Source: Marinomonas sp. MED121 (GTDB lineage Bacteria > Pseudomonadota > Gammaproteobacteria > Pseudomonadales > Marinomonadaceae). Taken from it: 64,000 bases of DNA. This document shows positions 29,528 to 55,987 of this stretch, piece by piece. Both the position numbers and the translations under genes were made by a program. Each line of letters starts with the position of its first letter. The stretch's first letter is position 1. The notes beneath the pieces are model-generated. The model was given only the letters and a program-made list of their open reading frames with translations, made no database searches and was not told the DNA's origin. The stretch spans positions 437,822 to 501,821 of the forward strand of contig NZ_CH672429.1 in NCBI RefSeq assembly GCF_000153025.1, read 5' to 3'.

Positions 29528-30478
29528 ATGGAAAGCTTTCTCTCTGTCTTAAATTTTTCAATTTCCATCACACTCCCCATATTTTTTATTCTTGCGCTTG
29601 GTGTACTGCTAAATAACCAGAAGATGATTAACGACAACTTTATTGAGGTCGCCTCTAAGCTGGTTTTTAACATTACCCTTCCCGCCTTACTATTTATCAG
29701 CATAGTTAAAACCGACTTAACTCAATCAACGGATTTTAGCTTGCCATTATTTGCCTTGAGCTGTGTCTTCATACTTTTTTTAGTATTTGAGTTTTGCAGT
29801 TCAAAAATGGTTAAAAACAAAGCGGATAGAGGCATCATAGTACAAGGGGCATTTCGTTCTAACATGGGCATTATTGGCCTAGCTTATTGTGTTAACGCCT
29901 ATGGTGAAAGTGTCTTTTCGGTTGCTTCCATTTATCTTGGCAGCGTCACAGTGTTGTTTAATATCTTGTCTGTGATCACGTTAAACCGATCGCTCAATAA
30001 ACAAGCAAACATAGCTAATACAATAAAAGGCATCGTTAAAAACCCCCTTATTATCAGCATTGTTTCTGCCATCATCATCTCCAGTTTAGGTATTAGCTTA
30101 CCTGAAAGCCTGTTAAAAACAGGCGGCTATTTTGCCCAAATGACTTTACCCTTAGCCCTTTTATGCGCCGGTGCGACCTTAAGTTTTAGCGCTTTAAAAA
30201 ACGACTTACCCCTTTCTTCTTTTGCCAGTTTAGGCAAACTCTTCATCAAACCAGCAGTGATGACAGTGGCAGGCATATTATGGGGATTTAGGGGCATGGA
30301 GCTAGGTGTCATCTTCTTAATGTCTTCAGCTCCCTCAGCCTCAGCAGGCTACATTATGGTGAGAGCGATGGGAGGCAATGCCAAACTTGCGGCAAATATT
30401 GTTGTGCTAACCACCATAGTATCCTTGTTGACTACCAGCATTGGCATCACAGTGCTGAAGTCTTATGGATTAATCTAA
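29528..30478 (+). CDS. AEC-family transporter (auxin efflux carrier-like permease)
   Basis: 316 residues, about ten hydrophobic helices. The start 'MESFLSVLNFSISITLPIFFILALGVLL', the 'KLVFNITLPALLFISIVKTDL' segment and the late 'IFLMSSAPSASAGYIMVRAMGGN' segment are typical of the AEC/MdcF family, which exports or imports small organic acids. Substrate unknown. The stop codon lies inside the first bases of the repeat copy at 30475, and the inverted partial copy C lies upstream, so the gene is bracketed by two inverted repeat copies. Confidence 0.87.
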   Translation: MESFLSVLNFSISITLPIFFILALGVLLNNQKMINDNFIEVASKLVFNITLPALLFISIVKTDLTQSTDFSLPLFALSCVFILFLVFEFCSSKMVKNKADRGIIVQGAFRSNMGIIGLAYCVNAYGESVFSVASIYLGSVTVLFNILSVITLNRSLNKQANIANTIKGIVKNPLIISIVSAIIISSLGISLPESLLKTGGYFAQMTLPLALLCAGATLSFSALKNDLPLSSFASLGKLFIKPAVMTVAGILWGFRGMELGVIFLMSSAPSASAGYIMVRAMGGNAKLAANIVVLTTIVSLLTTSIGITVLKSYGLI

Positions 30479-30793
30479 GGAGCCTAAGATTAGATCACCT
30501 CGTCTCAATCTGCTCTTTTTAAAATGATGGGAAAAGTATTAAACAAGGCGTCACTTTAGGCTGGAAATAGAAAATCAGTGAAGGCACCTTTTGAGAGGGG
30601 ACAACCCAAGGTATTACTTTTTCTAACGTGTCGAATAGCGATTATTTAAAGACCCGAAGGACGTGGCCTAAAGGCCTATCTTTAGGTTGTGGGTCTTATC
30701 AATAGCATCACAATTAAGTTGCACCCCTCGCCATAAATCTTAATACTTTTATCCACACGCTGAGACAGAAACGCTTATTCGCAGCGTCCCTAA
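30475..30793 (+). repeat. Dispersed intergenic repeat, copy A (complete, about 319 bp)
   Basis: Homologous to the copy at 55496-55766. Conserved words include AAACAAGGCGTCACTTT, AAAGACCCGAAGG, ATCTTTAGGTTG, ATTAAGTTGC, CCCCTCGCCATAAATCT and TTTTATCCACACGCTGAG. TTATCCACA at 30749-30757 is a perfect DnaA box. The outer 22 bp of the two ends are weak inverted repeats (about half the positions match). AAGACCC (30649-30655) pairs with GGGTCTT (30691-30697). No open reading frame. The left end includes the AEC stop codon. Confidence 0.85.
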
Positions 30794-30873
30794 CTAAATA
30801 CTTACCTAGAGAGACGGGAAACAGCTTAGAATAGGGCTTCATCTGTTTTATTCATTTAACAAGGATAAACACC

Positions 30874-32940
30874 TTGAGTTTTAGTTATAAAAAGCACAAA
30901 TTATTTTTTATCAGCAGCAGCCTGCTAGCAGCGAGCTTTTTCTTTGCGGTGGCCCATTTTTTTGCCAGTCAAATTTTAATGCTAAAACTTCATCAGCAAG
31001 GGCAAAACCAACTTCTCACTTATGTTGCTGATTTACGTCGAGAGTTAAATGAATACCGTCACATGCCCTACTCAGTTACAGATAATCCTGCCATTAGAGC
31101 ATTTATTTCTGACCCACAACCCACTCCCTATCTACAGGGTTACTTAAAAGATATAGCCAAAGTATCAGGGACAAACGATTGGTTTATTCTCAACCAAAAT
31201 GGTGAAGTGTTAACCTCTACAAATAAAAGAGGACAAGCAGTACTCACCCCTTTCTTTAGCCAAGAATATTTAGCCGAGCAACTGATTCAGCAACAGGGAG
31301 AAGCAAGTTTATTAACTGGCTATAACAAAGAACATACCCAATCCACCCAACTATTAACCGCTCCCATTTATGATTCAGGAGAGCTTTTTGGGGCTGTTGC
31401 TATCCAGATACAGTTATCTCAACTCATTGAAAGTTGGACCGTTTCGGGAGAAATTATTGCTATTACCGATAAAAAGAAAAACCTATTCTTAGCGAATGAC
31501 GACTTAAATTGGTCAAGGGACAAAAAGAGTCTTCAATCAGCACTTAGATACCCCTTAATTGAAGGGACAAACACCTACCAACTCACCATTGAAAACAAAG
31601 ACTACATGCTTCACAGCGTTATTTTGGATGATTTAGAGTGGCAGCTTATCTACTTATCGCCCATGGAAGGCAGCAAGCAAACCTCCAATTATATCGCCTT
31701 TGTAAGCCTTATGATTGGCTCATTATTGATAGTATTTGCCCTCTATCGTAATGAGAGAGCACTCAAAATCGCCTCCAAAATAGAGAACGAACAATTATTA
31801 GAACAAAATGAACAAAGACAAAAAGCCTTGATTGAAAAAACCCATGTGGGGTTAATTCAATTAGATAAGCTTGGCAGAATTCTCTTTATCAACCCAACAG
31901 GTCAAGCTTACTTTAGACACCAACCCGAATTGATTGGCCAGCATGTTAGCCAATTACTAGCAGCAGATGAAAAAATACCAAATGGCTATCAACAACCAAG
32001 CTTAACAGCAGAAGATTTTAATCATCCTCTTAAATTCAAAGAGCAAGAGGCTTGGCTCAAGCGAGAGAGCCAAGCGATATTCCCCGCTCTCATTTCAATT
32101 TCCCCCATCAACTGGGGGCACTCAAGCGGCTCACTCGTCACCTTAATAGATATTTCAAAACGAAAAAAAGCTGAACAAGATTTAATATTGGTTAACAATA
32201 ACCTTGAAAGCCGTGTTGAGGCCCGCAGTAATGAGCTAAAAGCCGCACAAAAAGAGCTATTAAGAGCAGAGAAACTTGCCACCATAGGTCAAATGTCGAC
32301 TGCGGTAGCCCATGAGCTTAATCAACCGTTAACCGGCCTTAGAACCTTGGTTTACACTGCGGAGCTTTTGCTAAATCGCAATCAAATAAAAGAGACAAAA
32401 TCGACCCTAAATCAAGTAGAAAGCATGATAGGTCGTATGCATAAACTCACCAGCGAACTCAAGGTCATTGCTTACCAAAGGCCGGAGCAATTGACTCAAA
32501 CAAAATTGGATGACTGTATTGATAAAGCCCTAGTCAGCTTAGGGACTAAGGCAAGTGGTTTATCGCTTAATATTGAATTGGCAGAAAACAATGTCCTGGC
32601 AGAAGCAACGCGACTAGAACGGATTTTTGCTAATTTAATCAGCAATTCATTAGATGCATGTGATGAGCACAAAATCGCGCCCGAAATACGGTTTACCAGT
32701 GAACGTATAAATAATAACGTTCAGATCCGTATACATGATAATGGCCCTGGCGTAGAGCCAGAAGCCATTGCTCACTTATTTGAGCCTTTTTATACCAGTA
32801 AAAGTATTGGTAAAGGTTTAGGCCTGGGTTTAGCGATCAGCGCAAACCTAGCAAAAGACATGCAAGGCATATTAACTGTCGAGCAAGGGATACCATCAGG
32901 CCTGATTTTCACTTTAACCTTGGAGCACAGTTCACTTTGA
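30874..32940 (+). CDS. DctB-like sensor histidine kinase
   Basis: 688 residues. Helix about 13-33, a periplasmic double-Cache-like sensor domain (to about 265), second helix about 272-292, a PAS domain ('LIQLDKLGRILFINPTGQAYF'), coiled coil, HisKA box 'STAVAHELNQPLTGLRTLVYTAELLLN' and ATPase boxes 'LISNSLDA', 'DNGPGVEPEAIAHLFEPFYTSK' and 'GLGLGLAIS'. The box around the histidine is that of the DctB group, which senses C4-dicarboxylates. Starts at TTG with AAGGAT upstream. The stop overlaps the start of the regulator gene (TTGA). Confidence 0.9.
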   Translation: MSFSYKKHKLFFISSSLLAASFFFAVAHFFASQILMLKLHQQGQNQLLTYVADLRRELNEYRHMPYSVTDNPAIRAFISDPQPTPYLQGYLKDIAKVSGTNDWFILNQNGEVLTSTNKRGQAVLTPFFSQEYLAEQLIQQQGEASLLTGYNKEHTQSTQLLTAPIYDSGELFGAVAIQIQLSQLIESWTVSGEIIAITDKKKNLFLANDDLNWSRDKKSLQSALRYPLIEGTNTYQLTIENKDYMLHSVILDDLEWQLIYLSPMEGSKQTSNYIAFVSLMIGSLLIVFALYRNERALKIASKIENEQLLEQNEQRQKALIEKTHVGLIQLDKLGRILFINPTGQAYFRHQPELIGQHVSQLLAADEKIPNGYQQPSLTAEDFNHPLKFKEQEAWLKRESQAIFPALISISPINWGHSSGSLVTLIDISKRKKAEQDLILVNNNLESRVEARSNELKAAQKELLRAEKLATIGQMSTAVAHELNQPLTGLRTLVYTAELLLNRNQIKETKSTLNQVESMIGRMHKLTSELKVIAYQRPEQLTQTKLDDCIDKALVSLGTKASGLSLNIELAENNVLAEATRLERIFANLISNSLDACDEHKIAPEIRFTSERINNNVQIRIHDNGPGVEPEAIAHLFEPFYTSKSIGKGLGLGLAISANLAKDMQGILTVEQGIPSGLIFTLTLEHSSL

Positions 32941-34310
32941 ATTCGATAACCCAAAAAGCCACCCTATTATTGGTCGATGATGAGCCCCTCGTAAGGGAAA
33001 CAACGGCTCAATGGTTACGTTTATCTGATTATGAAGTAGAAGAGTTTGATAATGCTCAAACCTTACTCAATCGTTTTGAAGCTAACGATAATGTGATTGT
33101 CATCAGTGATATTCGAATGCAACCACTGGATGGCTTAGGTTTGATGTCTCAACTGCTGCAGCTTGCCCCAAAGCTTCCTGTCATCTTAATTACCGGACAC
33201 GGGGATATTGATATGGCAGTAAAAGCCTTACGAGATGGGGCTTTCGACTTTCTAGAAAAACCTTTTGACCCCAATCGATTACTTGAAACAGTCAATAAAG
33301 CATCCGCTCAACGCCAATTAGACGAACAACATAAACAGCAACAAGATTATCTGGCTAATGTAAAAGGTATTGAAGAATTAATACTGGGTAAAAGCGTTGA
33401 AATTCAAGCCATTAGAGAGCAAATCAAAACCTTTGCCCAAATTGATACGAACGTCATCATTTATGGGGATACGGGTTGTGGTAAAGAACTCGTCGCCCAA
33501 GCATTACACGAACATAGCCATAGACAAAGCGAACCCTTTATTGCAATTAACTGCGCCGCCATTCCAGCTGACTTATTTGAAAGTGAGCTCTTTGGCCATG
33601 AAGCCGGTGCCTTTACTAGCGCGCAAAAACAACGCATAGGTAAATTAGAACTCGCCAGTGGTGGCAGTTTATTTCTTGATGAAATCGAAAGCATGCCTTT
33701 AGCCATGCAAATCAAGCTATTAAGAGTGCTACAAGAAAATACCTTAGAGCGGGTTGGTGGGAATAAATCGATTAAAGTTGACCTAAGAGTACTCGCGGCG
33801 GCTAAAGGCAATTTACAAACCCAGGAAGCCTTTCGTCAAGATCTATTTTTTAGGCTCAATGTTTCCCAAGTACATTTGCCGCCACTCTGTGAACGAGGGG
33901 ATGATATCCCGTTATTGTTCGAACATTTTTGCCAACAAGCCTGTCATGAAAAAGGCGTTACCTTTCGCCAATTAAGCCCAATGGACCATGAAACCCTCAT
34001 GTTATATGGCTGGCCTGGAAATGTGCGTGAGCTTCGTAATGTGGCACTACGCTATGCCCTAGAAGCCAACAGTACAGTAGCCAAAATTTTAAGTGGTTAT
34101 CAAGCCCAGAGCTCTCACGTTAACCTTTCACCTCTTCCATTAAGTGTCAAAGTTCAAGAGTATGAAAGAAGCCTAATTGATCAAACCCTAAAAGATTGTA
34201 AAGGCAATATTCAGCAGGCGTTAGACTCACTCCAGTTACCTAGGCGAACTTTAAATCAGAAGATGCAGCGCTATGGTTTAAACCGAAGTGACTACCTAGA
34301 TGAAGGCTAA
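32937..34310 (+). CDS. DctD-like sigma-54 activator (NtrC family)
   Basis: 457 residues. Receiver (1-120, D in 'VVISDIRMQPLDG'), AAA+ domain with Walker A 'GDTGCGKELVAQALH' and Walker B 'GGSLFLDEIESMPLAMQIKLL', and a C-terminal Fis-like HTH ('GNIQQALDSLQLPRRTLNQKMQRYGL'). The sigma-54 contact loop reads GAFTSA (residues 224-229) instead of GAFTGA. Starts at TTG inside the stop of the DctB-like gene, so the two are translationally coupled. No dicarboxylate TRAP genes follow, so its targets lie elsewhere. Confidence 0.92.
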   Translation: MNSITQKATLLLVDDEPLVRETTAQWLRLSDYEVEEFDNAQTLLNRFEANDNVIVISDIRMQPLDGLGLMSQLLQLAPKLPVILITGHGDIDMAVKALRDGAFDFLEKPFDPNRLLETVNKASAQRQLDEQHKQQQDYLANVKGIEELILGKSVEIQAIREQIKTFAQIDTNVIIYGDTGCGKELVAQALHEHSHRQSEPFIAINCAAIPADLFESELFGHEAGAFTSAQKQRIGKLELASGGSLFLDEIESMPLAMQIKLLRVLQENTLERVGGNKSIKVDLRVLAAAKGNLQTQEAFRQDLFFRLNVSQVHLPPLCERGDDIPLLFEHFCQQACHEKGVTFRQLSPMDHETLMLYGWPGNVRELRNVALRYALEANSTVAKILSGYQAQSSHVNLSPLPLSVKVQEYERSLIDQTLKDCKGNIQQALDSLQLPRRTLNQKMQRYGLNRSDYLDEG

Positions 34311-34319
34311 TTTAACTTA

Positions 34320-34342
34320 AATCAAAGTATTTGATTATTTTT
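34320..34342 (+). terminator. Weak terminator after the DctD-like gene
   Basis: AATCAAA / TTTGATT with a 3-nt loop, followed by ATTTTT. AT-only stem, 9 nt past the stop; low strength. Confidence 0.5.
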
Positions 34343-34354
34343 AATGAGAATGAC

Positions 34355-34383
34355 TTGCATTTGCATTTATTTGATATTATAAA
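34355..34383 (+). promoter_or_regulatory. Predicted promoter of the AraC-flavodoxin unit
   Basis: TTGCAT (34355-34360), a 17-nt spacer and TATAAA (34378-34383). A Fur box overlaps the predicted start point just downstream and a weaker Fur-like site (34345-34359, TGAGAATG..) overlaps the -35. Confidence 0.6.
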
Positions 34384-34398
34384 TAGTAATCATTATCA
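34384..34398. promoter_or_regulatory. Fur box
   Basis: TAGTAATcATTATCA matches the 7-1-7 Fur consensus TGATAATnATTATCA at 12 of 14 positions. It lies directly after the -10, 20 bp before the ATG of the AraC-family gene, so iron-loaded Fur would block transcription. Confidence 0.75.
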
Positions 34399-34418
34399 AA
34401 TACAAAAGGTTTAGGGCA

Positions 34419-35309
34419 ATGCGAATCGGCATTAATGATTTATATAACCAAGAAGGACAAGTGAGTAGCCACTTGTCTCATGCTTTTTCAGGTTATAAAC
34501 AAACACATCAACTAATGTCAGGTTTAAGCATCACTCAACAAGAAATAGGGTGTTCAGAAGACACCTTATTTTTTGAAGAAGCCAAGGCGGGAGTGTACTT
34601 CTCCCTGTTGGGTAATAAATCGGTATTCTCTCCTACCGATTTTGACTCTCTACAAGTCTCATGTTTTGATAATGACGTCGCCGGTGAATTCGAAGTAAAA
34701 GCAGGTGAATTACGTAGTTTAATTCAAATTCATTTTGAACCTGAACTTCTGGCAAATGCATTAAACGAAGTGCCAGAGACTTTAATGGTCTTTTTTAAAA
34801 CCTTAATCCATAAGATTGCCCCTACAAAAAATGTGGTTTGTTTGCCAATTACAGAAAGAAATCTGACAAATGTTGGTTTATTAATGGCAGCAAATGAACA
34901 AAGACAGCTCAGTTTAGTGGGTCAGGTCTATGCTTTTGCATTTTTAGCCCTAGAACAGATGCAAACCTTGTCTCACATGTTGTCCTGCAATGATTGCCAA
35001 AGTAAACTATTCAATGTGCAAAATCTGCTTGAAGCAGATATTGGCATTACGAAAGAACTTACTGAGTTTGCAAACCAAGCAGGTTTAAATGCAGATGCGT
35101 TAGAATTGGGCTTTTATCATCTTGTTGGTCAAACGGTTTCACAATATCAAGACCAATTTAGATTGAAACGTGCCGCGGCTATGTTACGTACAGACCACTA
35201 TTCACGTTCTGAAATTGTCGCTAAAACCGGTTTTTCTGAAGACCAGTTTGAAGCTATGTTTATTAGACAATTTGGCGTACCTACAAATCAGTATGGTCAA
35301 GTACATTAA
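34419..35309 (+). CDS. AraC-family regulator, iron-controlled
   Basis: 296 residues. N-terminal ligand-type domain, then an AraC-like double HTH at about residues 200-293 ('SQYQDQFRLKRAAAMLRTDHYSRSEIVAKTGFSEDQFEAMFIRQFGVPTNQYG'). The HTH is rather divergent. A C190-N-D-C193 pair sits just before the DNA-binding part; a metal or redox role is possible but unproven. The Fur-box promoter upstream and the flavodoxin gene 80 nt downstream indicate a role under iron limitation, like siderophore regulators of the PchR type. No siderophore genes are nearby. Confidence 0.82.
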   Translation: MRIGINDLYNQEGQVSSHLSHAFSGYKQTHQLMSGLSITQQEIGCSEDTLFFEEAKAGVYFSLLGNKSVFSPTDFDSLQVSCFDNDVAGEFEVKAGELRSLIQIHFEPELLANALNEVPETLMVFFKTLIHKIAPTKNVVCLPITERNLTNVGLLMAANEQRQLSLVGQVYAFAFLALEQMQTLSHMLSCNDCQSKLFNVQNLLEADIGITKELTEFANQAGLNADALELGFYHLVGQTVSQYQDQFRLKRAAAMLRTDHYSRSEIVAKTGFSEDQFEAMFIRQFGVPTNQYGQVH

Positions 35310-35389
35310 GTTCTTTGGATCATTTCTAGAACGCGTTTTTAGAACCCTTTTATGGCCCACGATTTGGCCGAATAGTTAGGAGAGTTAAA

Positions 35390-35929
35390 GTGTCACCTGA
35401 TACACCAATTGCCATTGTTTATGGAACCGATACGAATAACACTGAAGAAATTGCTCATAAAATTGCAAAACAATGGACAGAGCTTGGACATACAACCGAA
35501 ATTTTTAATATCAGCGACATTGATGCTGACACATTAGCGCAATATGAATTCTTGATTCTAGGTATTCCTACTTGGGACTTTGGCGGCATTCAGTCAGACT
35601 GGGAAGACATAGGAGACGATCTTGCAGCACTAAACCTAAAAGGCAAATTGATTGCACTTTATGGTTTAGGTGACCAATTTGGTTACGGTGACTACTTTGT
35701 CGACGCTATGGGCTGGATATACGAGCACCTTCAAAACTCAGGTGCAACCTTTATTGGTTCTTGGTCTACTGAAGGATATGACTTCACAGCGTCAAGAGCA
35801 TGTATTGAATCTAAAGATCAATTTATCGGTTTGGCAATCGATGAAGATCAACAATTTGAACTCACTGACGAACGTGTTGAGCAGTGGGTCATCCAACTTT
35901 ACGCTGAAATGATGGCTGAAGCTGAATAG
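35390..35929 (+). CDS. Flavodoxin, long-chain
   Basis: 179 residues from a GTG with AGGAGA 6 nt upstream. FMN phosphate loop 'IVYGTDTNNTEEIAHKIA', W of 'PTWDFGGIQSDW' and the 90s loop 'YGLGDQFGYGDYFVDAMG' are diagnostic, and the length is that of FldA/FldB-type long-chain flavodoxins. It can replace ferredoxin as an electron carrier when iron is scarce. It follows the AraC gene with no promoter visible between, so both probably answer to the Fur box. The NADP reductase at 12.5 kb is a possible electron donor. Confidence 0.93.
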   Translation: MSPDTPIAIVYGTDTNNTEEIAHKIAKQWTELGHTTEIFNISDIDADTLAQYEFLILGIPTWDFGGIQSDWEDIGDDLAALNLKGKLIALYGLGDQFGYGDYFVDAMGWIYEHLQNSGATFIGSWSTEGYDFTASRACIESKDQFIGLAIDEDQQFELTDERVEQWVIQLYAEMMAEAE

Positions 35930-35978
35930 AAGACCTATGACTGGCGCATTGATAATGCACTGAGGCAAAACGACTCAT

Positions 35979-36020
35979 AATTTGGAACTCCACTCATTCG
36001 CTGCCCCGAATGACCAAATT
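35979..36020 (+). other. Two-part hairpin after flavodoxin
   Basis: Inner stem TCATTCG (35994-36000) / CGAATGA (36007-36013) and outer stem AATTTGG (35979-35985) / CCAAATT (36014-36020), with an 8-nt bulge on the left. No T-run; upstream of the real terminator. Possibly an mRNA 3'-end structure or the start of a small RNA. Confidence 0.4.
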
Positions 36021-36072
36021 CGCCTTATATCAATGTTGGTCTTTATTGAGTCCATCATACAAGTGTGAAGCA

Positions 36073-36117
36073 CGCAGGCAACCTAAACTCTCCTGCCAGG
36101 TTGTCTGCGTTTTATTT
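36073..36117 (+). terminator. Rho-independent terminator of the flavodoxin unit
   Basis: 12-bp stem CGCAGGCAACCT (36073-36084) / AGGTTGTCTGCG (36098-36109) with one wobble pair, followed by TTTTATTTC. Confidence 0.85.
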
Positions 36118-36228
36118 CTTTGAACAAGATGTTAATTATGAAAATAGCATGACTTTTCAATAAACAGCTTACTTCTTCCCTTTATTTATCATAACCTTAA
36201 GTGATTAAAACTATTTAATTGCAGATTT

Positions 36229-36543
36229 ATGAACTTTACACTATCCGATCTTATTATTTTCTTTGCCTTAGGGTTTTTCGTTTATCTTTGGTGGCTTGGC
36301 AAAGCCGTAAAAGAAAGAGCCATTCCTCAAGTGAAGCAACACTGTAAGAAGTTCAATGTACAGTTACTTGACGACACCATTTCCCAAGAAAAGACACGCA
36401 TTGTCTGGCACAGGGGACAAATTAAAATAAAGCGTCATTTTACTTTCGAATTTACCTCAACCGGTGAAGCGAGATACCAAGGTAATATTTGCTTTATTAA
36501 TCAGAAGCTTGAAAATATAAACCTAGATCCGCACCATTTTTAA
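36229..36543 (+). CDS. DUF3301-family membrane-anchored protein
   Basis: 104 residues. One N-terminal helix (about residues 6-24) and a small soluble domain ('VKQHCKKFNVQLLDDTISQEK', 'RHFTFEFTSTGEARYQGNICFINQKLENI'). The C-x-x-x-x-V-Q-L-L-D-x-T-V/I and F-E-F-x-x-x-G-x-x-R/Y-x-G patterns are those of DUF3301, a gammaproteobacterial family of unknown function. Single gene. Confidence 0.87.
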   Translation: MNFTLSDLIIFFALGFFVYLWWLGKAVKERAIPQVKQHCKKFNVQLLDDTISQEKTRIVWHRGQIKIKRHFTFEFTSTGEARYQGNICFINQKLENINLDPHHF

Positions 36544-36967
36544 GAAAGTGAAAACCTTTTAGCTGTGTTTAACGGCACCATTAAGCAGCCGCCTCTTTCA
36601 TTTTTCCGCACCTATTTTGCTCAACACTCACTGTTTTTACGTTTGAAAAAACAAATTTGAAATATTTTTTCTTATAATTCAGTAGCTTACAGACCATAAA
36701 ATCACTTCTCTAAACTGGTATAAGAATTGCTATTCCAGTAAGCCTAAGTTGTTTTCGTAAAGCTTCACGCTCTAAAAATCGATACTCTTTAGAAAGAGTG
36801 TTTTTGTAATTTACGCCACCCTCCCTAAAAAGTAGCTGTTTCACAACACTATGATGAAAATGCAGCGACCTAGGCAAAAGTAACCAGGGCAAATCCACTA
36901 AGAAAAAAGCCATCCAGTAAGATATCCACTTGTTATTGTGACTTAGCAAGTTAATAAGGAAGAATAC
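36544..36967. other. Intergenic region, no gene seen
   Basis: 424 bp. A 79-codon minus-strand frame (36710-36949) begins with TTG without a ribosome binding site and shows no family motif, so I do not call it. AAGGAAG just before 36968 is the ribosome binding site of the next gene. Confidence 0.5.
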
Positions 36968-37828
36968 ATGCTCTCGAGCCTGACACTATTTGCTCTATTT
37001 ATTTTTATACTAAGCCTGCTAGCCATTTACCGTTTTTATCATGCTCGTAAACAAGCCAAGGAAAGAAGCCTTAGGGGAATTACAGCCGTAACAAGACTGA
37101 TCGAAATTATTAAACTAACCCAAGAGCACAGGGCCTTATATGTAGAGCACCTCAAGGGACAAGATCTAGCAAAAAATCAACTTGAGGCGATAGAAAAGCA
37201 AATAAATCAGCGTTATCTAGTGTTAATAGGCAAAGGAAAAGATCTTGATAAAACCCTTAAGCGCTTCGCTCAAAAGTCCCAAAGAATTTGGGGGAATATC
37301 TTGCAAAACCCCAGTCGAGATATCAATAAAAGCTTTCACACACATTCAAGTTTGATTCAGCGGTTATTAGACTGCTTGTGGGACATTGCTGATGATTACT
37401 CTTTAACGACTCATACAGACCACAACATACAATCCTTAGCCAACGACTTAGTTAGAACCTTGCCAAAGTTAACAGAAGCCATAGGGCAAGTACGCGCCAT
37501 TGCATTACAGATTACCCATAGTAAATACTGCTCTTCAGATAAAAAGTTATTACTTTTATTTACCTTAAGCAAAATTCAACGTGACTTATCCCAGGTTCAA
37601 CCTAAGTTGCAAAAGCAGCATTATAATAAGCTAACGAGCTTTATTGAGGAGATAACTAAATCGGTGGAAGATCAGGCACTCAGTGACCGTAACCCTGATA
37701 CTTTTTTTAATGAAGCGGGCTCTCATATCGATATCATTTTCAATAACATTCAAACAGGACTGAACGAATTAAAAACTCAGGTAATATTGCAGCCAAAGCA
37801 AAGAAAGAGAGCACAGCCATCAACTTGA
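36968..37828 (+). CDS. Membrane-anchored NIT-like sensor module, unknown function
   Basis: 286 residues. One N-terminal helix (about 3-21), then an all-helical soluble part. The segments 'LIEIIKLTQEHRALYVEHLKG' and 'LPKLTEAIGQVRAIALQI' resemble the four-helix nitrate/nitrite-sensing (NIT) or PilJ-type sensor domains found in front of kinases and GGDEF domains. No output domain follows, so it is a sensor-like part standing alone. The 3' end overlaps the convergent xni gene by 9 nt. Assignment is by pattern only. Confidence 0.6.
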   Translation: MLSSLTLFALFIFILSLLAIYRFYHARKQAKERSLRGITAVTRLIEIIKLTQEHRALYVEHLKGQDLAKNQLEAIEKQINQRYLVLIGKGKDLDKTLKRFAQKSQRIWGNILQNPSRDINKSFHTHSSLIQRLLDCLWDIADDYSLTTHTDHNIQSLANDLVRTLPKLTEAIGQVRAIALQITHSKYCSSDKKLLLLFTLSKIQRDLSQVQPKLQKQHYNKLTSFIEEITKSVEDQALSDRNPDTFFNEAGSHIDIIFNNIQTGLNELKTQVILQPKQRKRAQPST

Positions 37829-38608: not shown

Positions 38609-38764
38609 ACACAGCCCTTTTCGCTTTATTCATTAAGTTAACTTTTTTAAACCTTAACTTTGTTATTTAAAATTTATAACAAATCATTTTGTAATAGCAC
38701 TAAACTCCCTAGGCATAACCCTTTAAGATGGTGTTATCTCATTTGATCCAGATAAGGAAATACC

Positions 38765-45732: not shown

Positions 45733-45745
45733 AAAGAGGTCATTA

Positions 45746-46819: not shown

Positions 46820-46892
46820 ATAATCCCCTATCCTCATGTATTTGTTATACTCTGCAACCAAACTAAACTAACACTTTGATATATATAAACCT

Positions 46893-47471
46893 ATGGCAAA
46901 ATTGTATTTTTATTATTCGGCCATGAATGCCGGAAAGTCGACCGTTTTATTGCAGTCTGCACACAATTATAAAGAAAGAGGTATGACACCTTTATTATTT
47001 ACTGCGGCGATTGATAATAGAATGGCCACAGGAAAAATTGCATCACGTATTGGTATTGCAGCAGACGCTCAAGTTTTCCTGCCTGATTCAAATTTATTTT
47101 TAGAAATTAAAGATGCCACTAAGTCATCAAAAATTGATTGTATTCTGATCGATGAAGCTCAATTTTTAACCGAAGAGCAGGTATATGGGCTATCAGAAGT
47201 TGTCGATAAACTTAACATCCCTGTGCTGGCATTTGGCATAAGAACAGATTTTAAAGGGCAGCTCTTTGAAGGCAGTAAAGCATTGCTTGCTTGGTCCGAT
47301 AAACTAATTGAACTAAAAACCGTTTGTCACTGTGGTCAAAAAGCCACCATGGTAATTAGAATAGATGGTGAAGGTAACCCATTACGCGAGGGTGAGCAGG
47401 TCGAAATTGGTGGCAACAGCCGCTATGTATCCGTTTGCCGAAAACACTTTAAAGAGGCTGTTGTAGATTAA
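46893..47471 (+). CDS. tdk: Thymidine kinase
   Basis: 192 residues, type II thymidine kinase. P-loop '[17 protein letters not shown]', '[11 protein letters not shown]' (Walker B), '[18 protein letters not shown]', zinc cysteines 'CHCGQKATM' and C-terminal 'VCRKHF'. It phosphorylates thymidine with ATP for salvage. ATG start, divergent from the chemoreceptor gene. rdgC starts 2 nt after its stop. Confidence 0.96.
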
Positions 47472-47473
47472 TT

Positions 47474-48376: not shown

Positions 48377-48386
48377 ATCTGTTTGT

Positions 48387-48430
48387 AAAAGTTGGGTTAT
48401 AACCCCTATAACTCAACTTTTAAGTTATTT
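48387..48430 (+). terminator. Terminator of tdk-rdgC
   Basis: 15-bp stem (48387-48401 / 48407-48421; AAAAGTTG..GTTATA with one mismatch) and a 5-nt loop, then AAGTTATTTTT. Confidence 0.75.
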
Positions 48431-48606
48431 TTCAGATGCTTACTAAATTTACACATAAGCTATCTTTTTCCACAGATTAGGTGGATAAGTTGGGGAGAGA
48501 TTCAGGCAGGCTAGATTTGCTCTAGCATGACACTTGATGCAAGTGTTTTGTTAAACTTTTTTAAATATTTTTTTCACCCCTTTAGCTTATAAATAATTCA
48601 AATCTG

Positions 48607-49830
48607 ATGAACAAAATAGAAACGGAACAAGAGGTTGCACAAAAAGTAACACTGATTGGCAGTGCGTTAGATGCGGTCCTAGGTGTACTGAAAATAATAG
48701 CAGCCAATTTATCAGGCTCTCAAGCCCTTATGGCGGACGGCATCCATAGCCTCTCAGATTTATTCACAGATGTATTAGTACTCATCAGTTTCAAAATTTC
48801 TCGTCAATCTCCCGATAAAAACCATCAATTTGGTCACCTTAGATTTGAATCGCTTGGCAACTTGATTCTTGGATTCATATTACTTCTAGTCGCCATTGGC
48901 ATAGGTTTGGACGCCATTCTTAGAAGCAGTCAGAGCCATCTTACCTGGCTTGGCGTTGGCAGCCTTCTTATCACGATCATTTGCAAAGAAGTTATTTTTT
49001 TCTATACCAAAAAAGCAGGGGATAAAATTAATAGCCAACTATTAATTACCAACGCTTGGCATAGCCGCACCGACTCACTTTCTTCCCTCATTGTGTTAAT
49101 CAGTATGTTGGGAATGTATTTTGGTTACGCTTGGCTAGATAAAGTAGCAGCCATTATTGTCGCCCTTTTAATTGCTAAAATTGCGCTCAGCACCATTTGG
49201 AAAACCCTTGCTGAGCTTATCGATACAGCGCCAAGCAAAGACACCATGAAAAATATTATAAGTTGCGCTAAGAGTATTGAATCACAAGCGATACCAAGCA
49301 AAATCAGAGCAAGAACCATGGCGGGGAAGGTGTATTTAGATATGCGTTTACGTGTAGATAAACGCATTAGTGCAAGCGAAGGGCATTTTTTAGGGGAAAA
49401 GGTCGCAAGTAAAATCAAACAGCACAACCCCATGGTAGAAGATATTCTAATTCATATTGATTTAAACGGTTTTGATCGTGATGAGCCTGAGCTAGAAATC
49501 CCAACCGATAGCAGCGATAAAGTTAAAAGCCATAGTGAAGAAACTAAAGATAAGATTGCAAAATTACCCGATCGTAATCAAATACAAGCGGACTTAGGCT
49601 TTTTATTAAGATCACACAAACATTATCTTGATTTAGCCAATATCAAATTAGATTACCTAGATACGGGCCTTGATATTACCTTGATTGCTTATGCTGCCTC
49701 GCTTAATGAAGGGCAAAACATTCAAAAATGCTGTGCCGCCATTGAGATGGACAGTCAGTCTGTTCGTTATGCAAACTCCATTAAGTTACTTTGGGATATG
49801 CAAGCAGCAATACCCATATCTAAACAATAG
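48607..49830 (+). CDS. Cation diffusion facilitator (CDF) metal exporter
   Basis: 407 residues, about six helices in the first 210. Metal site A residues are 'HSLSDLFTDVLVL' (H-x3-D) and 'HSRTDSLSSLIVL' (H-x3-D). Then a cytosolic ferredoxin-like domain ('MRLRVDKRISASEGHFLGEKV', 'VEDILIHIDL'). It exports Zn2+ or a similar divalent ion by proton antiport. About 100 extra residues at the C-terminus are unlike the usual 300-residue members; a second small domain there repeats a similar pattern. Monocistronic, convergent with rmuC. Confidence 0.9.
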   Translation: MNKIETEQEVAQKVTLIGSALDAVLGVLKIIAANLSGSQALMADGIHSLSDLFTDVLVLISFKISRQSPDKNHQFGHLRFESLGNLILGFILLLVAIGIGLDAILRSSQSHLTWLGVGSLLITIICKEVIFFYTKKAGDKINSQLLITNAWHSRTDSLSSLIVLISMLGMYFGYAWLDKVAAIIVALLIAKIALSTIWKTLAELIDTAPSKDTMKNIISCAKSIESQAIPSKIRARTMAGKVYLDMRLRVDKRISASEGHFLGEKVASKIKQHNPMVEDILIHIDLNGFDRDEPELEIPTDSSDKVKSHSEETKDKIAKLPDRNQIQADLGFLLRSHKHYLDLANIKLDYLDTGLDITLIAYAASLNEGQNIQKCCAAIEMDSQSVRYANSIKLLWDMQAAIPISKQ

Positions 49831-49875
49831 TAGCCAATAGCAGCCAATAGTTTTGTTGGTATTTTTTATTCGCTT

Positions 49876-51237
49876 TTAATCTGGCTTAACCTCATCCAAG
49901 GCTAAGCTAGGTTGAGATGACTCTAAATGTGATGCGGGCAATTGCTTACTGGCTTTAGCCCCCATGACTTTTAGCTGCTCCGCTCGACTGACTAGATTTC
50001 CCCTACCCGTATTTAATTTATTCATCGCTGTATCATAGCCACGCTGAGCCATACCTAAGCGGGATCCCACTTCATCCATATCAGCAACAAAACCGACAAA
50101 CTTGTCATACATGGCGCCAGCTTGCCTGGCAATTTCAACCGCATTTTGGCTTTGCTTTTCATTACGCCAAATATTTTGAATGGTTCTTAAGGTCGCCAAT
50201 AAATTAGAAGGCCCAACGACAATGATGTTTTTATCAAATGCATCGCTAAAGACATTCGCCTCAGCTTGAATAGCCAATAAATACGCAGCTTCAATAGGAA
50301 TAAAGAGAAGCACAAAGTCCAAACTAGTAATACCGGGTAAAGTTTCATAGGCTTTACCGCTTAAATCTTTAATATGACGTTTAATGGCCTCTAAATGTTG
50401 TTTTAATGCTTTTTGCTTTGCTTCCTCTGAATCCGCTTCCACATAAGCGAGATAACTCACCAACACCATTTTTGAGTCTATGATGACCTGCTTACCTTCG
50501 GGTAAATTAACAATCACATCAGGTTGAAAGCGACGACCTGTTTCTGTGGTAGCTGATACCTGTACTTGGTATTCTCGGCCTTTTTCTAAACCAGAACGTT
50601 CTAAAATACGCTCTAAGATCACCTCTCCCCAGCCACCTTGTATTTTATTTTGTCCTTTGAGGGCTTGCGTTAAACCCGCTGCATCATCACTAATCCGCTG
50701 ATTCAGCTGCTGAAGGTTTTGAATCTCTTTGACAAGGGAAAAGCGTTCTTTTGCTTCTGTTTGGTAGCTAAGCTCAACCTTCTCTTGAAAATGCTTAATC
50801 TGATTGCCAAGAGGATTTAATAATGAGCCTAATTGTTTTTCATTTTCAGACACCAGATGCTTTTGCTGCTGTTGCATAATGTCCTGAGCGAGTTGCTTAA
50901 ATTCCACTTGCATTTGCATTTTTTGAGAAGCAAACATGGCTTCTTTTTCTTGCCATACGGTTTGAGCGGCAGCAAATTGTTGCTCTAAAATAATGGCTTC
51001 TTTTTCCATACTATGAATCAGTTCTGATTGATGTCTGAGTTTTTGCTCCAATTCACCCTTAATCAGCTGAATTTGCTTTAAATCTTGTTCACTTTTTTCT
51101 TGCCCATGCTGCCACTTACGACGCATTGAATGTACAATAGCAACAAACAGCACTATGCAAAGAATGACACCAACAGAGAAGCCTGTCAGCGCCACTAAAA
51201 AAGGCCCTAGTTCAGCACTCACTTGACTACTATTCAT
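49876..51237 (-). CDS. rmuC: DNA recombination protein RmuC
   Basis: 453 residues. One N-terminal helix (about 12-34), a long coiled coil (about 45-200), and the RmuC core ('LKGQNKIQGGWGEVILERILERSGL', 'RRFQPDVIVNLPEGKQVIIDSKMVL', 'VLLFIPIEAAYLLA', 'IIVVGPSNLLATLRTI'), a PD-(D/E)XK-like nuclease fold. RmuC limits certain recombination products such as inversions at short inverted repeats. Alone, divergent from yigZ. Confidence 0.95.
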   Translation of the reverse strand: MNSSQVSAELGPFLVALTGFSVGVILCIVLFVAIVHSMRRKWQHGQEKSEQDLKQIQLIKGELEQKLRHQSELIHSMEKEAIILEQQFAAAQTVWQEKEAMFASQKMQMQVEFKQLAQDIMQQQQKHLVSENEKQLGSLLNPLGNQIKHFQEKVELSYQTEAKERFSLVKEIQNLQQLNQRISDDAAGLTQALKGQNKIQGGWGEVILERILERSGLEKGREYQVQVSATTETGRRFQPDVIVNLPEGKQVIIDSKMVLVSYLAYVEADSEEAKQKALKQHLEAIKRHIKDLSGKAYETLPGITSLDFVLLFIPIEAAYLLAIQAEANVFSDAFDKNIIVVGPSNLLATLRTIQNIWRNEKQSQNAVEIARQAGAMYDKFVGFVADMDEVGSRLGMAQRGYDTAMNKLNTGRGNLVSRAEQLKVMGAKASKQLPASHLESSQPSLALDEVKPD

Positions 51238-51292
51238 TTACTTGCCACCTGCTAAAATCATTTATAAATCAATACTTAATATTCAAGTGTAC

Positions 51293-51907
51293 ATGGATTA
51301 TTTCTTAAGCCCAACTGAGTCTCAGCGTTTTGACCTGATTATCAAAAAAAGTCAATTCATCACCCAGGTTTGCCAAACCAAAGGGAGAGCAGAGGCAAAA
51401 GAATTTATACAGCAAGTAAGAGATCAGTTTCCTGATGCAAACCATCATTGCTGGGCTTTTGTAGCAGGGCATCCAAGTAATGTGCATTTGTGGGATCAAA
51501 GTGATGATGGAGAGCCCAAAGGCACGGCAGGAAAGCCTATGTTAAATGTGTTACAGCACTCAGATTTTGGCGAAACCTGTGTTGTCGTTACCCGTTACTT
51601 TGGCGGTATTAAACTCGGTGCAGGCGGATTGGTTCGCGCTTATAGCCAAGCAGTCCAAGAAGCGCTTAGCCAAACACAAAGCAAGCAAGTTTTCCCCAGA
51701 AATAATATACAGCTCAAAATATCCTACGCTTTATTAGGCAAGGTTGAATATTGGTTAGAGCAAAGTGATATCGAAGTGAATAATAAACATTTCGATAGCG
51801 ATATCATTTTTGATCTAGCTGTCATACCTAACTCTTGGATAGAACAAAAAGCGGCCTTGACTAACTTATGTCAGGGCAGCCTTACCCTCAAAAATGTGGA
51901 TGAATAA
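51293..51907 (+). CDS. yigZ: YigZ / IMPACT-family protein
   Basis: 204 residues from the ATG at 51293, the same length as E. coli YigZ; the upstream frame to 51242 would add 17 residues. 'KKSQFITQVCQTKGRAEAKEFIQQV', 'DANHHCWAFVAG', 'DDGEPKGTAGKPMLNVLQHSDFGETCVVVTRYFGGIKLGAGGLVRAYSQ' are the conserved UPF0029 block. A second domain (about 140-204) is the DUF1949 fold. Members may regulate translation. 5 nt before rapA, so probably in its operon. Confidence 0.92.
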   Translation: MDYFLSPTESQRFDLIIKKSQFITQVCQTKGRAEAKEFIQQVRDQFPDANHHCWAFVAGHPSNVHLWDQSDDGEPKGTAGKPMLNVLQHSDFGETCVVVTRYFGGIKLGAGGLVRAYSQAVQEALSQTQSKQVFPRNNIQLKISYALLGKVEYWLEQSDIEVNNKHFDSDIIFDLAVIPNSWIEQKAALTNLCQGSLTLKNVDE

Positions 51908-51912
51908 CGAAT

Positions 51913-54732
51913 ATGTACCAAACTGGACAAAGATGGAGTAGCCGTAACGAACCTGATTTAGGTGTCGGCATGATAGTAGAATTAGAAGCTAAGTCTTTCA
52001 CTGTGCATTTTGCAGAATCAGAAATGGACCGCCATTACTCCGTATCACAAACCAGCTTAGTAAGACGCACTCTGACAGAAGGTGACGAACTTTACTTTCA
52101 AGATCAGGCCTTCGTTATCGAAGAAGTACGTGAAATTGACGGCTTAGTTGAATATTTTATTGGTGATGATTGGATTGAAGAATCCATCATTCAATTTCCT
52201 CGTAACGATAAAAATGAAATTGATGCACTTTTATCTTTGTCGCCTGCAAAACGTATGTGGTTTGATTTGCGCCATCAGACACTTAACCACCAATCTAAAT
52301 TAGCCACCTCTGATGTGAGAGGTTTAATGGGCTTAAAGGCAGAGCTCCTGCCACACCAAATTTATCTTGCCCATGATATTGCTAACCGCCCTAAAGCTCG
52401 CGCACTTTTATGTGATGAAGTGGGTATGGGTAAAACATTAGAAGCGGGACTAATTCTTCACCACAGAATGCTAAATGGTTTATGTAAGCGCGCTCTTATT
52501 CTGACGCCAACTAATTTACAGCACCAATGGCTAGTGGAAATGCTACGCCGTTTTCATCAGCATTTTTCATTAATTAATGAAGCGGCTTATGAAGAGAATT
52601 GGGATGAAGAGGCTAACCTCTTTGAAGAACAACCGCTTGTCATTGCACCAATTGACTGGGTTGCAGGTAACTCAAAAGCCGCTCAACAAATGCTTAGTGC
52701 AGAATGGGATATGGTGATCATAGATGAAGCTCACCACCTAAGCTGGAGCCCTGAAGCACCAAGCAATGGCTATCAAATTGCCGCCGCATTAGCGGCTAAA
52801 TCAGAATCACTACTTTTATTGAGTGCAACACCTGAACAGACGGGGGAAATGGAGCATTTCTCTCGTTTACAACTCATAGATCCAGACAGTTACCACAGCT
52901 TTGATCAATACCAAGAGCAACAATCTGACTTTAAACAAGCAGCATTATTAGCAGAACAACTACTGCCATTAAGCCAAGGTAAAGCGCCTGAAACTGCCCC
53001 AGATTGGGAAAAGTGGTTCGCACCTTATTTAAGCGAAGTGAGTTCAAAAGAATGGTATCAGGTATTAACTCAGCAAGCAGGCGACGCTTTTGCTATGGCA
53101 ATACAAGATGCCATAAGCTGGCTTATTGATAGGCATGGTACGGGGCGCGAAGTTTTCCGTAATACCCGTGCTGCGATTGGTGGTTTTCCAACACGTATCT
53201 TGACCAGCTATCCTCTTGAATCTCACCCTAATCATACGTTTAGCAAAGACTCTGTCTTCCCTCAAAACAGTTTAGAGCAAGCTAAATGGGGCGAAGATCC
53301 GCGCTGGGAATGGTTAAAAGAATTCTTAGAATGCCAAGCAGATAAAGTTCTTATAATTTGTCATAACTCAGATATGGCTCAATGGTTGAGTGAGCAGCTT
53401 ACCTTTGCTGGCTTTCAAAGCGCTGATTTTCATGAACAAATGTCTCTTATCCATAGGGACAGAGCAGCAGCGTATTTTGCTGACCCTGAAGGGGCACAAA
53501 TTTTAGTATGCTCAGAAATCGGCAGTGAAGGCAGAAACTTTCAGTTTAGCCACAACCTAGTCATGTATGATTTACCCGAACACCCTGACTTACTGGAACA
53601 GCGTATTGGCCGTCTAGACCGTTTAGGTCAAACCCAAGATGTAAAAATCCACGTTCCTTTCATTGAAGGCACGGTACAGGCAAGGCTATTCCAATGGTAT
53701 CACCAAGCACTTAACGCGTTTTGCCATACCACACCTTGTGGCGACAAGGTAAATAATACCTTTAAAGAGAGTCTAAACAGCTTCTTACAGGGCAATGATG
53801 ACGACATTACTTTAATTGAGGAAGCAAAAGCCTATCACAAAGCGCTTTTAATACAGCTTGAGCAAGGCCGTAATCGCCTTTTAGAAATGACCTCTTGTCG
53901 TCCAGAAAAAGCAAAAGCTTTAATTGAAGAGATTGAAGAAAATGCATCAGCTGGGCTAAACGAATATATCGAAAAAGTCACCCATGCTTTTAACATTCAT
54001 ACTGATCGCATTGAAAAAGAAGGCGACGACAGTGAATGGTTTATTCGACCTTCCACCGACATGATGTTAGAAGCATTGCCAGGAATTGAAGAAGAAGGTA
54101 AGACCCTAGTGCTTAACCGTCGCAAAGCAAGCCAACGTGAAGATGTTGCTTTTGCTACTTGGGAGCACCCTTTAATCTCCATGTTAATGGATGAAGTTCA
54201 AACCTTTGATTCAAGCCGTTTAACTGCCTCTACTATGCCAATTGCAGCACTTCCTGAAGGCACGGTATTGGTAGAAAGTCTGTTTGTTATTGAAGCCAGT
54301 GCTCATCCAAGGCTTAAATTAAGCCAGTCATTACCTATGACACCTATTTGGCAATTATCTGATGCTAACGGTAAGTTTCTGCATAGTCAGTTCACCCCTG
54401 AAAAGTGGGCAGATCGCTTAGAAAGTGTCCCTAACCGTGTTGCTGAGCAATGGGTGGCTGCCCTTAGAAAAGACCTGATTGAGTTATTACAAAACCACCA
54501 GTTAAATGCCTACGAACAAGCCCGTCCTATTATTGCCCAAGCTAAACAGCAATATCAGAGAAAGTGGCAAGGTGAAATAGACAGACTTATTGAGCTTCAA
54601 AAGCAAAACAGGCTAATAAAGAATGAAGATGTTGAACAACTAGAAAACAACTTACAAGATGGCATTTCTCGAATTGATGATTGCCAGATTAGGTTAGACG
54701 CTATTCGTATCATCTTGACCACCAAACCTTAA
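51913..54732 (+). CDS. rapA: RNA polymerase-associated SWI2/SNF2 ATPase RapA
   Basis: 939 residues. N-terminal Tudor-like part ('GQRWSSRNEPDLGVGMIVE'), Walker A 'DEVGMGKTLEAGLIL', 'VIIDEAHHLSW' (DEAH), 'LLLSATPEQTGEMEHF', then the helicase C part 'LVCSEIGSEGRNFQFSHNLVMYDLPEHPDLLEQRIGRLDRLGQTQDV' and a long C-terminal RapA region. It recycles stalled RNA polymerase. Its Walker-A leucine/methionine differences from E. coli are minor. rluA follows after 3 nt, as in other gammaproteobacteria. Confidence 0.97.
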   Translation: MYQTGQRWSSRNEPDLGVGMIVELEAKSFTVHFAESEMDRHYSVSQTSLVRRTLTEGDELYFQDQAFVIEEVREIDGLVEYFIGDDWIEESIIQFPRNDKNEIDALLSLSPAKRMWFDLRHQTLNHQSKLATSDVRGLMGLKAELLPHQIYLAHDIANRPKARALLCDEVGMGKTLEAGLILHHRMLNGLCKRALILTPTNLQHQWLVEMLRRFHQHFSLINEAAYEENWDEEANLFEEQPLVIAPIDWVAGNSKAAQQMLSAEWDMVIIDEAHHLSWSPEAPSNGYQIAAALAAKSESLLLLSATPEQTGEMEHFSRLQLIDPDSYHSFDQYQEQQSDFKQAALLAEQLLPLSQGKAPETAPDWEKWFAPYLSEVSSKEWYQVLTQQAGDAFAMAIQDAISWLIDRHGTGREVFRNTRAAIGGFPTRILTSYPLESHPNHTFSKDSVFPQNSLEQAKWGEDPRWEWLKEFLECQADKVLIICHNSDMAQWLSEQLTFAGFQSADFHEQMSLIHRDRAAAYFADPEGAQILVCSEIGSEGRNFQFSHNLVMYDLPEHPDLLEQRIGRLDRLGQTQDVKIHVPFIEGTVQARLFQWYHQALNAFCHTTPCGDKVNNTFKESLNSFLQGNDDDITLIEEAKAYHKALLIQLEQGRNRLLEMTSCRPEKAKALIEEIEENASAGLNEYIEKVTHAFNIHTDRIEKEGDDSEWFIRPSTDMMLEALPGIEEEGKTLVLNRRKASQREDVAFATWEHPLISMLMDEVQTFDSSRLTASTMPIAALPEGTVLVESLFVIEASAHPRLKLSQSLPMTPIWQLSDANGKFLHSQFTPEKWADRLESVPNRVAEQWVAALRKDLIELLQNHQLNAYEQARPIIAQAKQQYQRKWQGEIDRLIELQKQNRLIKNEDVEQLENNLQDGISRIDDCQIRLDAIRIILTTKP

Positions 54733-54735
54733 TTT

Positions 54736-55374
54736 ATGCCAACCCCTTTGTCGCTAGAGATCTTGTATGAAGATGAATGGTTCGCGGTTATTAATAAACC
54801 CGCGAACTTTTTATCCGTGCCAGGTCGTGGCCCCGAAAAACAAGACAGTGTTACCCATAGAGCTCAATGCTTATTTGGTGAAGCCCATGCGGTGCATCGT
54901 CTTGATTTCGCCACCTCTGGTTTGATATTAGTCGCTAAAACCCTTGAAAGTCATAAGCGTTTATCTGAACATTTTCGTGAAAGACGAGTGCAGAAAGAGT
55001 ATCGCGCTATTTTAAGAGGCAAGGTGCTTGCTCAAGAAGGCGTGGTTAATAAGCCTTTAATTTGTGACTGGCCTAATCGTCCTAGACAAATCGTCCACAG
55101 AGAGTGGGGAAAAGCGGCAACCACCCATTGGAAAAAATTAAAAACACCACCTGGCAGCATTCATAGCCATGTGGCACTTTTTCCTATTACTGGCCGCTCT
55201 CACCAATTAAGAGTCCATATGCAAAGTATGTCTCACCCCATTTTAGGTGATGAGTTTTATGATGCTTTATCTAGTCCCGCGGATGAGCGCCTGCATTTAC
55301 ATGCCTATCGGCTTGAGTTCAATCATCCATTTACAACAGCTTGGCTAAAATTTATTGCTGTTTGCCCCTTTTAA
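54736..55374 (+). CDS. rluA: Pseudouridine synthase RluA
   Basis: 212 residues. Catalytic aspartate in 'HRLDFATSGLILVAK' (usual HRLDMATSG), also 'GRSHQLRVHMQSMSHPILGDEFY' and 'LHLHAYRLEFNHP'. RluA modifies uridine 746 in 23S rRNA and position 32 in some tRNAs. It lacks an S4 domain, consistent with RluA and not RluC/D. The ATG is 3 nt after rapA. Confidence 0.94.
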   Translation: MPTPLSLEILYEDEWFAVINKPANFLSVPGRGPEKQDSVTHRAQCLFGEAHAVHRLDFATSGLILVAKTLESHKRLSEHFRERRVQKEYRAILRGKVLAQEGVVNKPLICDWPNRPRQIVHREWGKAATTHWKKLKTPPGSIHSHVALFPITGRSHQLRVHMQSMSHPILGDEFYDALSSPADERLHLHAYRLEFNHPFTTAWLKFIAVCPF

Positions 55375-55987
55375 GCAAGAACAAAGCTTATTCTGCTGTT
55401 TAGCTTCCTTAAATACACCTAGCAACTTTTCCTTGAACTTTTAACATGTCGTCACAAATTCAAGTGACCCCCATATCAATGAAGCAAACTAATCACTAGG
55501 GAAACTGCGATTAAGTCACCTCTTCTCAGTCTTATCAGAAAAAGAGTCAAACAAGGCGTCACTTTGAAGTAATGTAGGTACCTTTCAAGAAGGGACAACG
55601 AAGAGTGACATTTTTTCTGAAAGACCCGAAGGGCGTGGTCTAATAGCCCTATCTTTAGGTTGAGGACCTTATCAATAGAATAACTATTAAGTTGCGCCCC
55701 TCGCCATAAATCTAGAGGCTTTTATCCACACGCTGAGGCGGGAGGACTTATTCTCAGCTTCCCTAGCTAATGTAACGAATTGAAAACACATCGAAATAGC
55801 CTTAACAGGCCCCTTCACCTTCTGCATAAAAGCTTATACCTTTAAAGTAAGGATAAAAAATGAGTCCACTATTTTTTGACATACCCATCACAATCAATAA
55901 AAACGACGTTAGCATTTTTAATCTTGTAAGTAGAATGATAACGTTAGCTTAATCAACCAAATAATTTGTCTTTATTAGGGATATAAC
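55375..55987. other. Long intergenic region holding repeat copy B
   Basis: 613 bp with no gene. Copy B of the dispersed repeat fills 55496-55766. The rest is AT-rich and must contain the promoter of the coiled-coil lipoprotein gene; ATTAGGGATATAAC just before its ATG carries the ribosome binding site. Confidence 0.8.
55496..55766 (+). repeat. Dispersed intergenic repeat, copy B (complete, 271 bp)
   Basis: Homologous to copies A and C. The ends are a 22-bp imperfect inverted repeat (55496-55517 and 55745-55766; CTAGGGAA..CTG..GA.TAAGTC, 19 of 22 positions match). Inside: AAACAAGGCGTCACTTT, CCTTTCAAGAAGGGACAAC, AAAGACCCGAAGG, CCCCTCGCCATAAATCT and a perfect DnaA box TTATCCACA at 55722-55730. 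It lacks about 22 nt that copy A has near 30624-30645. No coding potential. Confidence 0.87.

Follow-up and report, generated by a model that had tools for sequence, protein, structure and literature searches.

The window analyzed here is a 64,000-nucleotide genome segment of Marinomonas sp. MED121. It holds two similar stretches, at 30475–30793 and 55496–55766. A reading made from the sequence alone had taken them for copies of a MITE family. The two stretches aligned along their length as copies of one element (blastn identity 84% for a 151-bp stretch of the 3' half, and 88% and 72% for 5' pieces of 26 and 46 bp), and the words said to be common to both were found in both. Each of these intervals comprises the element and a 4-bp duplication on either side. 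Copy B is a complete element of 263 bp (55500–55762, + strand), with CTAG at 55496–55499 and at 55763–55766. Copy A is decayed (30479–30789, + strand, 311 bp) and lies between CTAA at 30475–30478, which contains the stop codon of the ORF 29528–30478, and CTAA at 30790–30793. The copies represent the two main size classes, ~263 bp and ~285–325 bp, copy A belonging to the longer. For the inverted ends of copy B, the earlier count of 19/22 was reproduced when CTAG was included, but without CTAG the count fell to 16/22. The ends of copy A were weaker, as claimed (11/22 and 9/22 with the duplication in and out, respectively). The third, shortened and inverted copy proved real though weak. This copy C is a single truncated module on the − strand, placed at 29314–29435 (blastn 71.6%, E = 1.6e-14; covariance model R1, built from the left 127 nt of 34 sequences, 31.8 bits, E = 4.9e-5).

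The same reading had stated that no open frame exists inside the element. Stop-free stretches of at least 60 codons do occur, scattered over the six frames (24, 20, 15, 15, 8, and 5 across 80 elements), but none is conserved. The longest stop-free stretch had a median of 70 codons, in a frame differing between copies. A protein-coding or decayed gene was ruled out, as no frame was common to the 80 elements. At 263 and 311 bp, the copies are thus short and lack a transposase gene.

Mobility was examined through ends, target duplications, and empty sites. Inverted end pairs sought in the available loci yielded 112 elements from 13 genomes (58 in the own genome), a set that includes short derivatives (63–205 bp) and at least two pairs with a common end (L008, L039). 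An exact 4-bp duplication flanked 69 of these 112 two-ended elements, always of the YTAR type (TTAA 34, CTAG 24, CTAA 6, TTAG 5), and a YTAR word was present on both sides of 85. Words taken 1–7 bases farther out matched in 0 or 1 case, and over 1000 trials with shuffled partners, the matches averaged 27 and never exceeded 40, as compared with the 69 observed. The non-palindromic duplications were direct in 11 cases and inverted in none. The duplications are therefore not part of the inverted ends, in which such words would be inverted.

The earlier proposal hinged on further copies, and these were found in the own genome and in many relatives. The own genome (5.15 Mb, 13 contigs) gave 54 copies with model R1, and blastn gave at least 43 and at least 49 matches with copies B and A as the query, respectively. 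The end motif GGAANCTGCGAATAAGTC, with up to one mismatch, occurred 53 + 55 times in this genome, as against 0 + 0 for the reversed control. Full-length copies within a genome were on average 89–98% alike in 12 of the 13 genomes compared; G004 has two subfamilies, and its full-length copies were 70% alike on average. We also joined the flanks without the element at 56 sites of the own genome and of SBI8L. One of the 56 (L008) gave an empty site by nesting: there, the joined flanks read as a copy of the repeat without interruption (85.6% over 111 bp), and one element had thus jumped into another. At this locus (1437–1770), the element sits in the apical part of the other copy, which is restored by joining the flanks. 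In the orthologous flank pair L067/L119 (87%), the alignment stopped before the element, and no empty site was read from it. Under a simple rule based on ORFs of at least 80 codons, five of 54 rows overlapped one by more than 40 bases, and the other 49 did not. The orientation of the neighboring genes was unbiased in these 54 rows, one locus being counted twice (++ 19, −− 17, +− 9, −+ 9), which ruled out a role tied to gene orientation. Short derivatives of 63–163 bp with the same ends, several of them flanked by target duplications, were seen at L131, L132, L143, L020, L010, L166, and L183. At L130 (G000:C2:51187-51223), a very short palindrome with little beyond the two ends lies between CTAG words. 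With terminal inverted repeats, target-site duplications, many intergenic copies, one nested insertion whose empty site was recovered, and a presence in many genomes, the MITE identity is supported, and the element would be moved in trans by a transposase.

Which transposase could move the element is suggested by the duplications. All 69 exact ones are of the YTAR type, as duplicated by IS5 (PMC10359306). In the own genome, we found one intact IS5-family gene (PF05598 + PF01609; NF033581 355 bits, cut-off 140). Its element ends in GGAACATGCGATCAAGTC and GGAACATGCGAATAAGTC and has CTAA before and ATAA after it. A similar end motif is seen in the MITE and at IS5-family transposase genes of the own genome. 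In other genomes of the genus, the copies end in GGAAGGTGCGAATAAGTC, which we take to resemble an IS5 end, and GGAAGGTGCGAATAAG presumably resembles the end sequence of E. coli IS5. When copy B was compared with the own-genome IS by blastn, the terminal 18–24 bp alone matched, besides short chance-level matches. Type II MITEs are likewise defined by having sequence in common with an IS only at the ends (PMC10969869).

For 12 genomes with copies, PF01609 matches were searched, and 30 loci were examined for matching ends. Nine of the 12 had a PF01609 match, and the profile search gave none in G020, G187, and G025. Both matching ends were found around a PF01609 gene in G010, G009, and G230, and one matching end in G023 and G320; outside these 12, similar ends were seen in G000, the own genome. 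Among the 30 loci, those of G013, G018, G129, and G027 showed no matching ends. Where no mover is visible, either it was lost, or it belongs to another family, or the search missed it. In G013, a loss would not be ancient, because seven copies there are 95–98.5% alike. The target duplications and ends are consistent with transposition of the IS5 group. The module described below was absent from the resident IS5 genes and IS ends examined (best score 22.2 bits, apart from one MITE copy). A module forming part of an autonomous IS was thus ruled out at these ends; the 89-bit match at L214 comes from a MITE copy that adjoins fragments of an IS. In G031, the IS5-family transposase was matched 77 times, often at the end of a contig, and the module twice.

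The interior of the element is organized as two inverted copies of one module, each reading inward from its own end. The module (~127 nt) consists of the TIR, a stem P2 of at least 16 pairs, an internal loop (5' AAGGC / 3' AACRCA), a stem P3 of 8 pairs, and an apical loop like GCAGGAATGTCTAGACCTTTCAA. The left module of copy B, containing all these parts, lies at 55500–55625 (+ strand; R1 131.9 bits, E = 3.8e-27), and the right one lies at 55633–55762 on the opposite strand (R1 30.8 bits, E = 8.4e-5). Between them is a central hairpin, CCC-GAA-GGG (55625–55633), read from the sequence and corresponding to pairs 131–132 with 136–137 of alignment A1. In this copy and in others, its loop is mostly GNA on the + strand and reads UNC(G) on the other. 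For copy A, the model placed the left module at 30493–30631 (+ strand; R1 24.9 bits, E = 0.0017), the element itself starting at 30479. Its right module (30661–30789, − strand) is weak alone (R1 14.8 bits, E = 0.29) and was placed by alignment to copy B.

Alignment A1 comprised 49 full-length copies from 13 genomes. Its fold is a cloverleaf closed by the TIRs, with two long arms and the short central hairpin inside. Out of 88 pairs, 35 changed on both sides, as compared with 7–19 in slid versions, and 94.4% of the cells were paired versus 35–45% when slid. Further pair types did not rise above the shuffles of A1 (114/500 as high); in a further shuffle control, 14/500 were as high. A1 holds only ~3 sequence clades, and therefore the sample was enlarged. 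In A3 (45 left modules), 27 of 30 pairs changed on both sides, and 96.1% of the cells were paired (36–49% when slid). The covariation score was 0.860, compared with 0.113–0.174 for slid versions, and none of 500 shuffles reached it; 8/500 reached 27 two-sided pairs. For the right modules (A4), 23 of the 25 predicted pairs changed on both sides.

Pairs were also counted without an alignment, outward and inward from two loop anchors. The widened anchor rule scores Watson–Crick pairs only, so the choice of anchors raises the Watson–Crick count. With it, all 71 left modules were anchored (Watson–Crick 1432, G–T 134, A–C 12, other 126; in the non-redundant 25: 510, 45, 4, and 41). All 78 right modules were anchored on their own strand (1207, 239, 41, and 385), a set in which some elements are represented twice, their ends differing slightly; in the non-redundant set of 22, cut at 75% identity, the counts were 408, 36, 6, and 78. 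Standard-pair cells were poorer in the right modules (1446/1872) than in the left ones (1566/1704). A first, narrower rule had anchored 65/71 left and 29/78 right modules, with G–T/A–C counts of 126/12 and 72/46. When partners were shifted by 1–3 bases in the full sets, the Watson–Crick counts dropped to 365–596 (left) and 381–779 (right), and G–T and A–C differed by less than a factor of two. In the right half of A1, counting on the + strand gave 26 G–T and 49 A–C; for the TIR stem, it gave 20 and 22. The excess of G–T over A–C means that a single strand is kept, for RNA or DNA alike. The strand kept at each end is the one reading inward from the nearer end.

The two modules of the same element were compared in the 62 of 80 elements anchored on both sides. 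The strands of P2 were 29% identical in the genus and 41% in other genera, and those of P3 34% and 36%. The TIRs, taken as the first 15 bases at each end, were 89% and 96% alike, and the loops 73–80%, a value raised by the anchor rule. The stems are thus nearly unrelated, each is self-complementary, and the loops are the same. Selection on a folded single strand would give such a pattern, whereas a foldback by-product would not.

Covariance models were searched, as the earlier reading had advised, and the module was found in genomes across the genus, the order, and the class (Gammaproteobacteria). At all three levels, strict filters were used and no more than 72, 11, and 9 candidates per genome, respectively, were scored, so copy numbers are lower bounds. 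Model R1 matched 29 of 48 genomes of the genus, with at least 356 matches summed. In the order, it matched 51 of 293 genomes and 28 of 118 genera, 44 of these 51 genomes lying outside the genus. Model R2, built from 45 sequences including other genera, matched 99 of 369 genomes of the class, spread over 82 of 272 genera. These 99 include the own genome; the remaining 98 are assigned no further than to the same class. In 53 loci of other genera, R1 gave 81 matches; 28 lay in the second half of an element and on the opposite strand. Since both strands of the same elements were matched, these carry the same module twice, in inverted order. Both ends were found in 26 of the 53 loci, which come from other genera of the order; 22 of the 26 were 253–266 bp long, and 13 had an exact duplication, CTAG or TTAA. 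The other 27 failed the end rule, 19 of them because the core pattern was unmet. At the class level, 13 of 19 loci showed by eye a right end ~260–290 bp after the left one, and the rest were cut, shortened, or misplaced in the stretch inspected. A pattern scan of named genomes gave matches in Marinomonas sp. SBI8L alone, in six stretches. With narrow queries, plasmids gave no match for copy B, a far copy, or a class-level copy; phages gave none for the class-level copy, and no viral contig matched one core pattern. The IS5-group signature, the two-headed layout with one module per end on opposite strands, and the spread through the class go beyond what had been noted for this locus.

What keeps the fold has several possible answers. 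The probable one, in our judgment, is that a non-autonomous MITE with IS5-type ends carries two inward-reading folded modules kept by compensating changes, is most likely moved in trans by IS5-group DDE transposases, and uses the fold most likely as a cis-acting RNA. The sequence-only reading had suggested a structured RNA core; the structure is borne out by covariation, and that the folded strand is RNA is what we infer. A transcript entering from either side would meet the near module first and in sense, in either orientation of the inserted element. The module would most likely act in cis on the invading transcription or transcript, which it may stop, cut, or mark through a bound protein. 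Through such action, the ends would stay usable and the insertion would do no harm; copies without the fold would spread less, and the fold would be kept. The mostly intergenic position and the lack of orientation bias would fit such a two-way device. If the fold instead worked as single-stranded DNA, the 5' ends would fold during replication or excision and be recognized by the transposase or by a replication protein. This is possible, although we consider it unlikely. The conservation of one strand per end is expected here too, and the central hairpin, mostly C-GNA-G, has a loop of a type that is very stable in DNA. The same loop reads UNCG on the other strand, and the UNC(G) type is a typical and very stable RNA loop. 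Moreover, the ends and duplications point to an IS5-group DDE transposase, and such enzymes are known to act on double-stranded ends. A precedent for either strand type is given by REPINs, which PMC3116915 describes as hairpins in ssDNA or mRNA with compensating changes.

A bolder version, which we regard as doubtful, would make mobility itself depend on the modules. They would be a new, class-wide kind of functional folded nucleic acid, most likely RNA, of a DDE-type system that needs a folded strand at each end and that uses another transposase or a host partner where no IS5 gene is visible. A trans-acting small RNA, released from some copies with the rest passive, would account for the strong conservation of the fold with its fixed loops. 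We think it improbable, since the module is kept at both ends, on opposite strands, and in dozens of copies within one genome, which a single master RNA would not require. That the element is an ordinary passive MITE, whose folds are by-products of inverted duplication and recent amplification from a few masters, seems very improbable. MITE transcripts commonly form stable stem-loops (PMC10969869), and A1 does hold only those few clades. The low identity of the left and right stems (P2 29–41%, P3 34–36%), however, shows that no single sequence folded back to give both arms, and compensating changes of several types were found at nearly every pair in many genera. Least credible of all is titration or recruitment of DnaA. 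Of 103 genus copies, 87 have the nonamer TTATCCACA, which we take to be a DnaA box, at a distance of exactly 41 bases from the right end (55722–55730 in copy B, 30749–30757 in copy A, and at the same place in other genus copies). Within the genus, however, it forms part of the right module, in whose stem and inner loop it falls, and it was not seen in the inspected copies from other genera, which ruled out a DnaA box as the common function.

MITEs are usually seen as passive, their ends alone being thought to matter; here, an interior fold is kept at both ends. A module acting on transcripts would turn the dozens of copies in a genome into ready-made intergenic regulatory parts. A role in transposition would instead add a new requirement to mobile elements of a common kind.

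Compared with known systems, the MITE features and the IS5-type duplication are familiar, and the class-wide, two-headed, covarying module appears to be new. Like IS5-group ISs and type II MITEs, the element has a 4-bp YTAR duplication (PMC10359306), has ends similar to those seen around IS5-family genes in the own genome and in some related ones, and matches the own-genome IS only at its ends, as type II is defined (PMC10969869). In contrast to them, its interior is not passive, as it carries two covarying modules found class-wide, and the IS5 genes examined lack the module. The element differs from REPINs in that its units are ~127 nt long and contain internal loops, and in having TIRs and YTAR duplications; to our knowledge, REPINs have no target duplication. 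The element is therefore not a REPIN: duplications are present, and its units are not REPs by size and sequence. It shares with REPINs two inverted structured units, an extragenic position, many copies, and compensating changes (PMC3116915). Another comparison, by description, concerned the Correia elements (CREE, NEMIS) of Neisseria. These differ in host class and have a TA duplication. They are also short non-coding repeats with inverted ends and a conserved core, and their RNA, reported to be bound or cut by RNase III (PMC2649163), would be a model for action on transcripts. MITEAba12 of Acinetobacter (Pseudomonadales) is likewise a MITE present in many genomes of a family and moved by a resident IS (PMC6382973), but it has 113 bp, 9-bp duplications, and ISAba12 ends. 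The bcr1-type repeats of the Bacillus cereus group are also mobile repeats with a predicted conserved RNA structure, and they differ in phylum and ends.

The earlier remark that no named family was recognized held up against Rfam, in which none of 4227 families matched above the gathering threshold within an element. The module, found in 82 of the 272 genera sampled from one class, thus corresponds to no family of this RNA library. In the literature searched, mostly outside subscription journals, no description was recognized as such an element. At L258 in G029, a Molybdenum cofactor riboswitch (1897–2054) adjoins a copy of the element.
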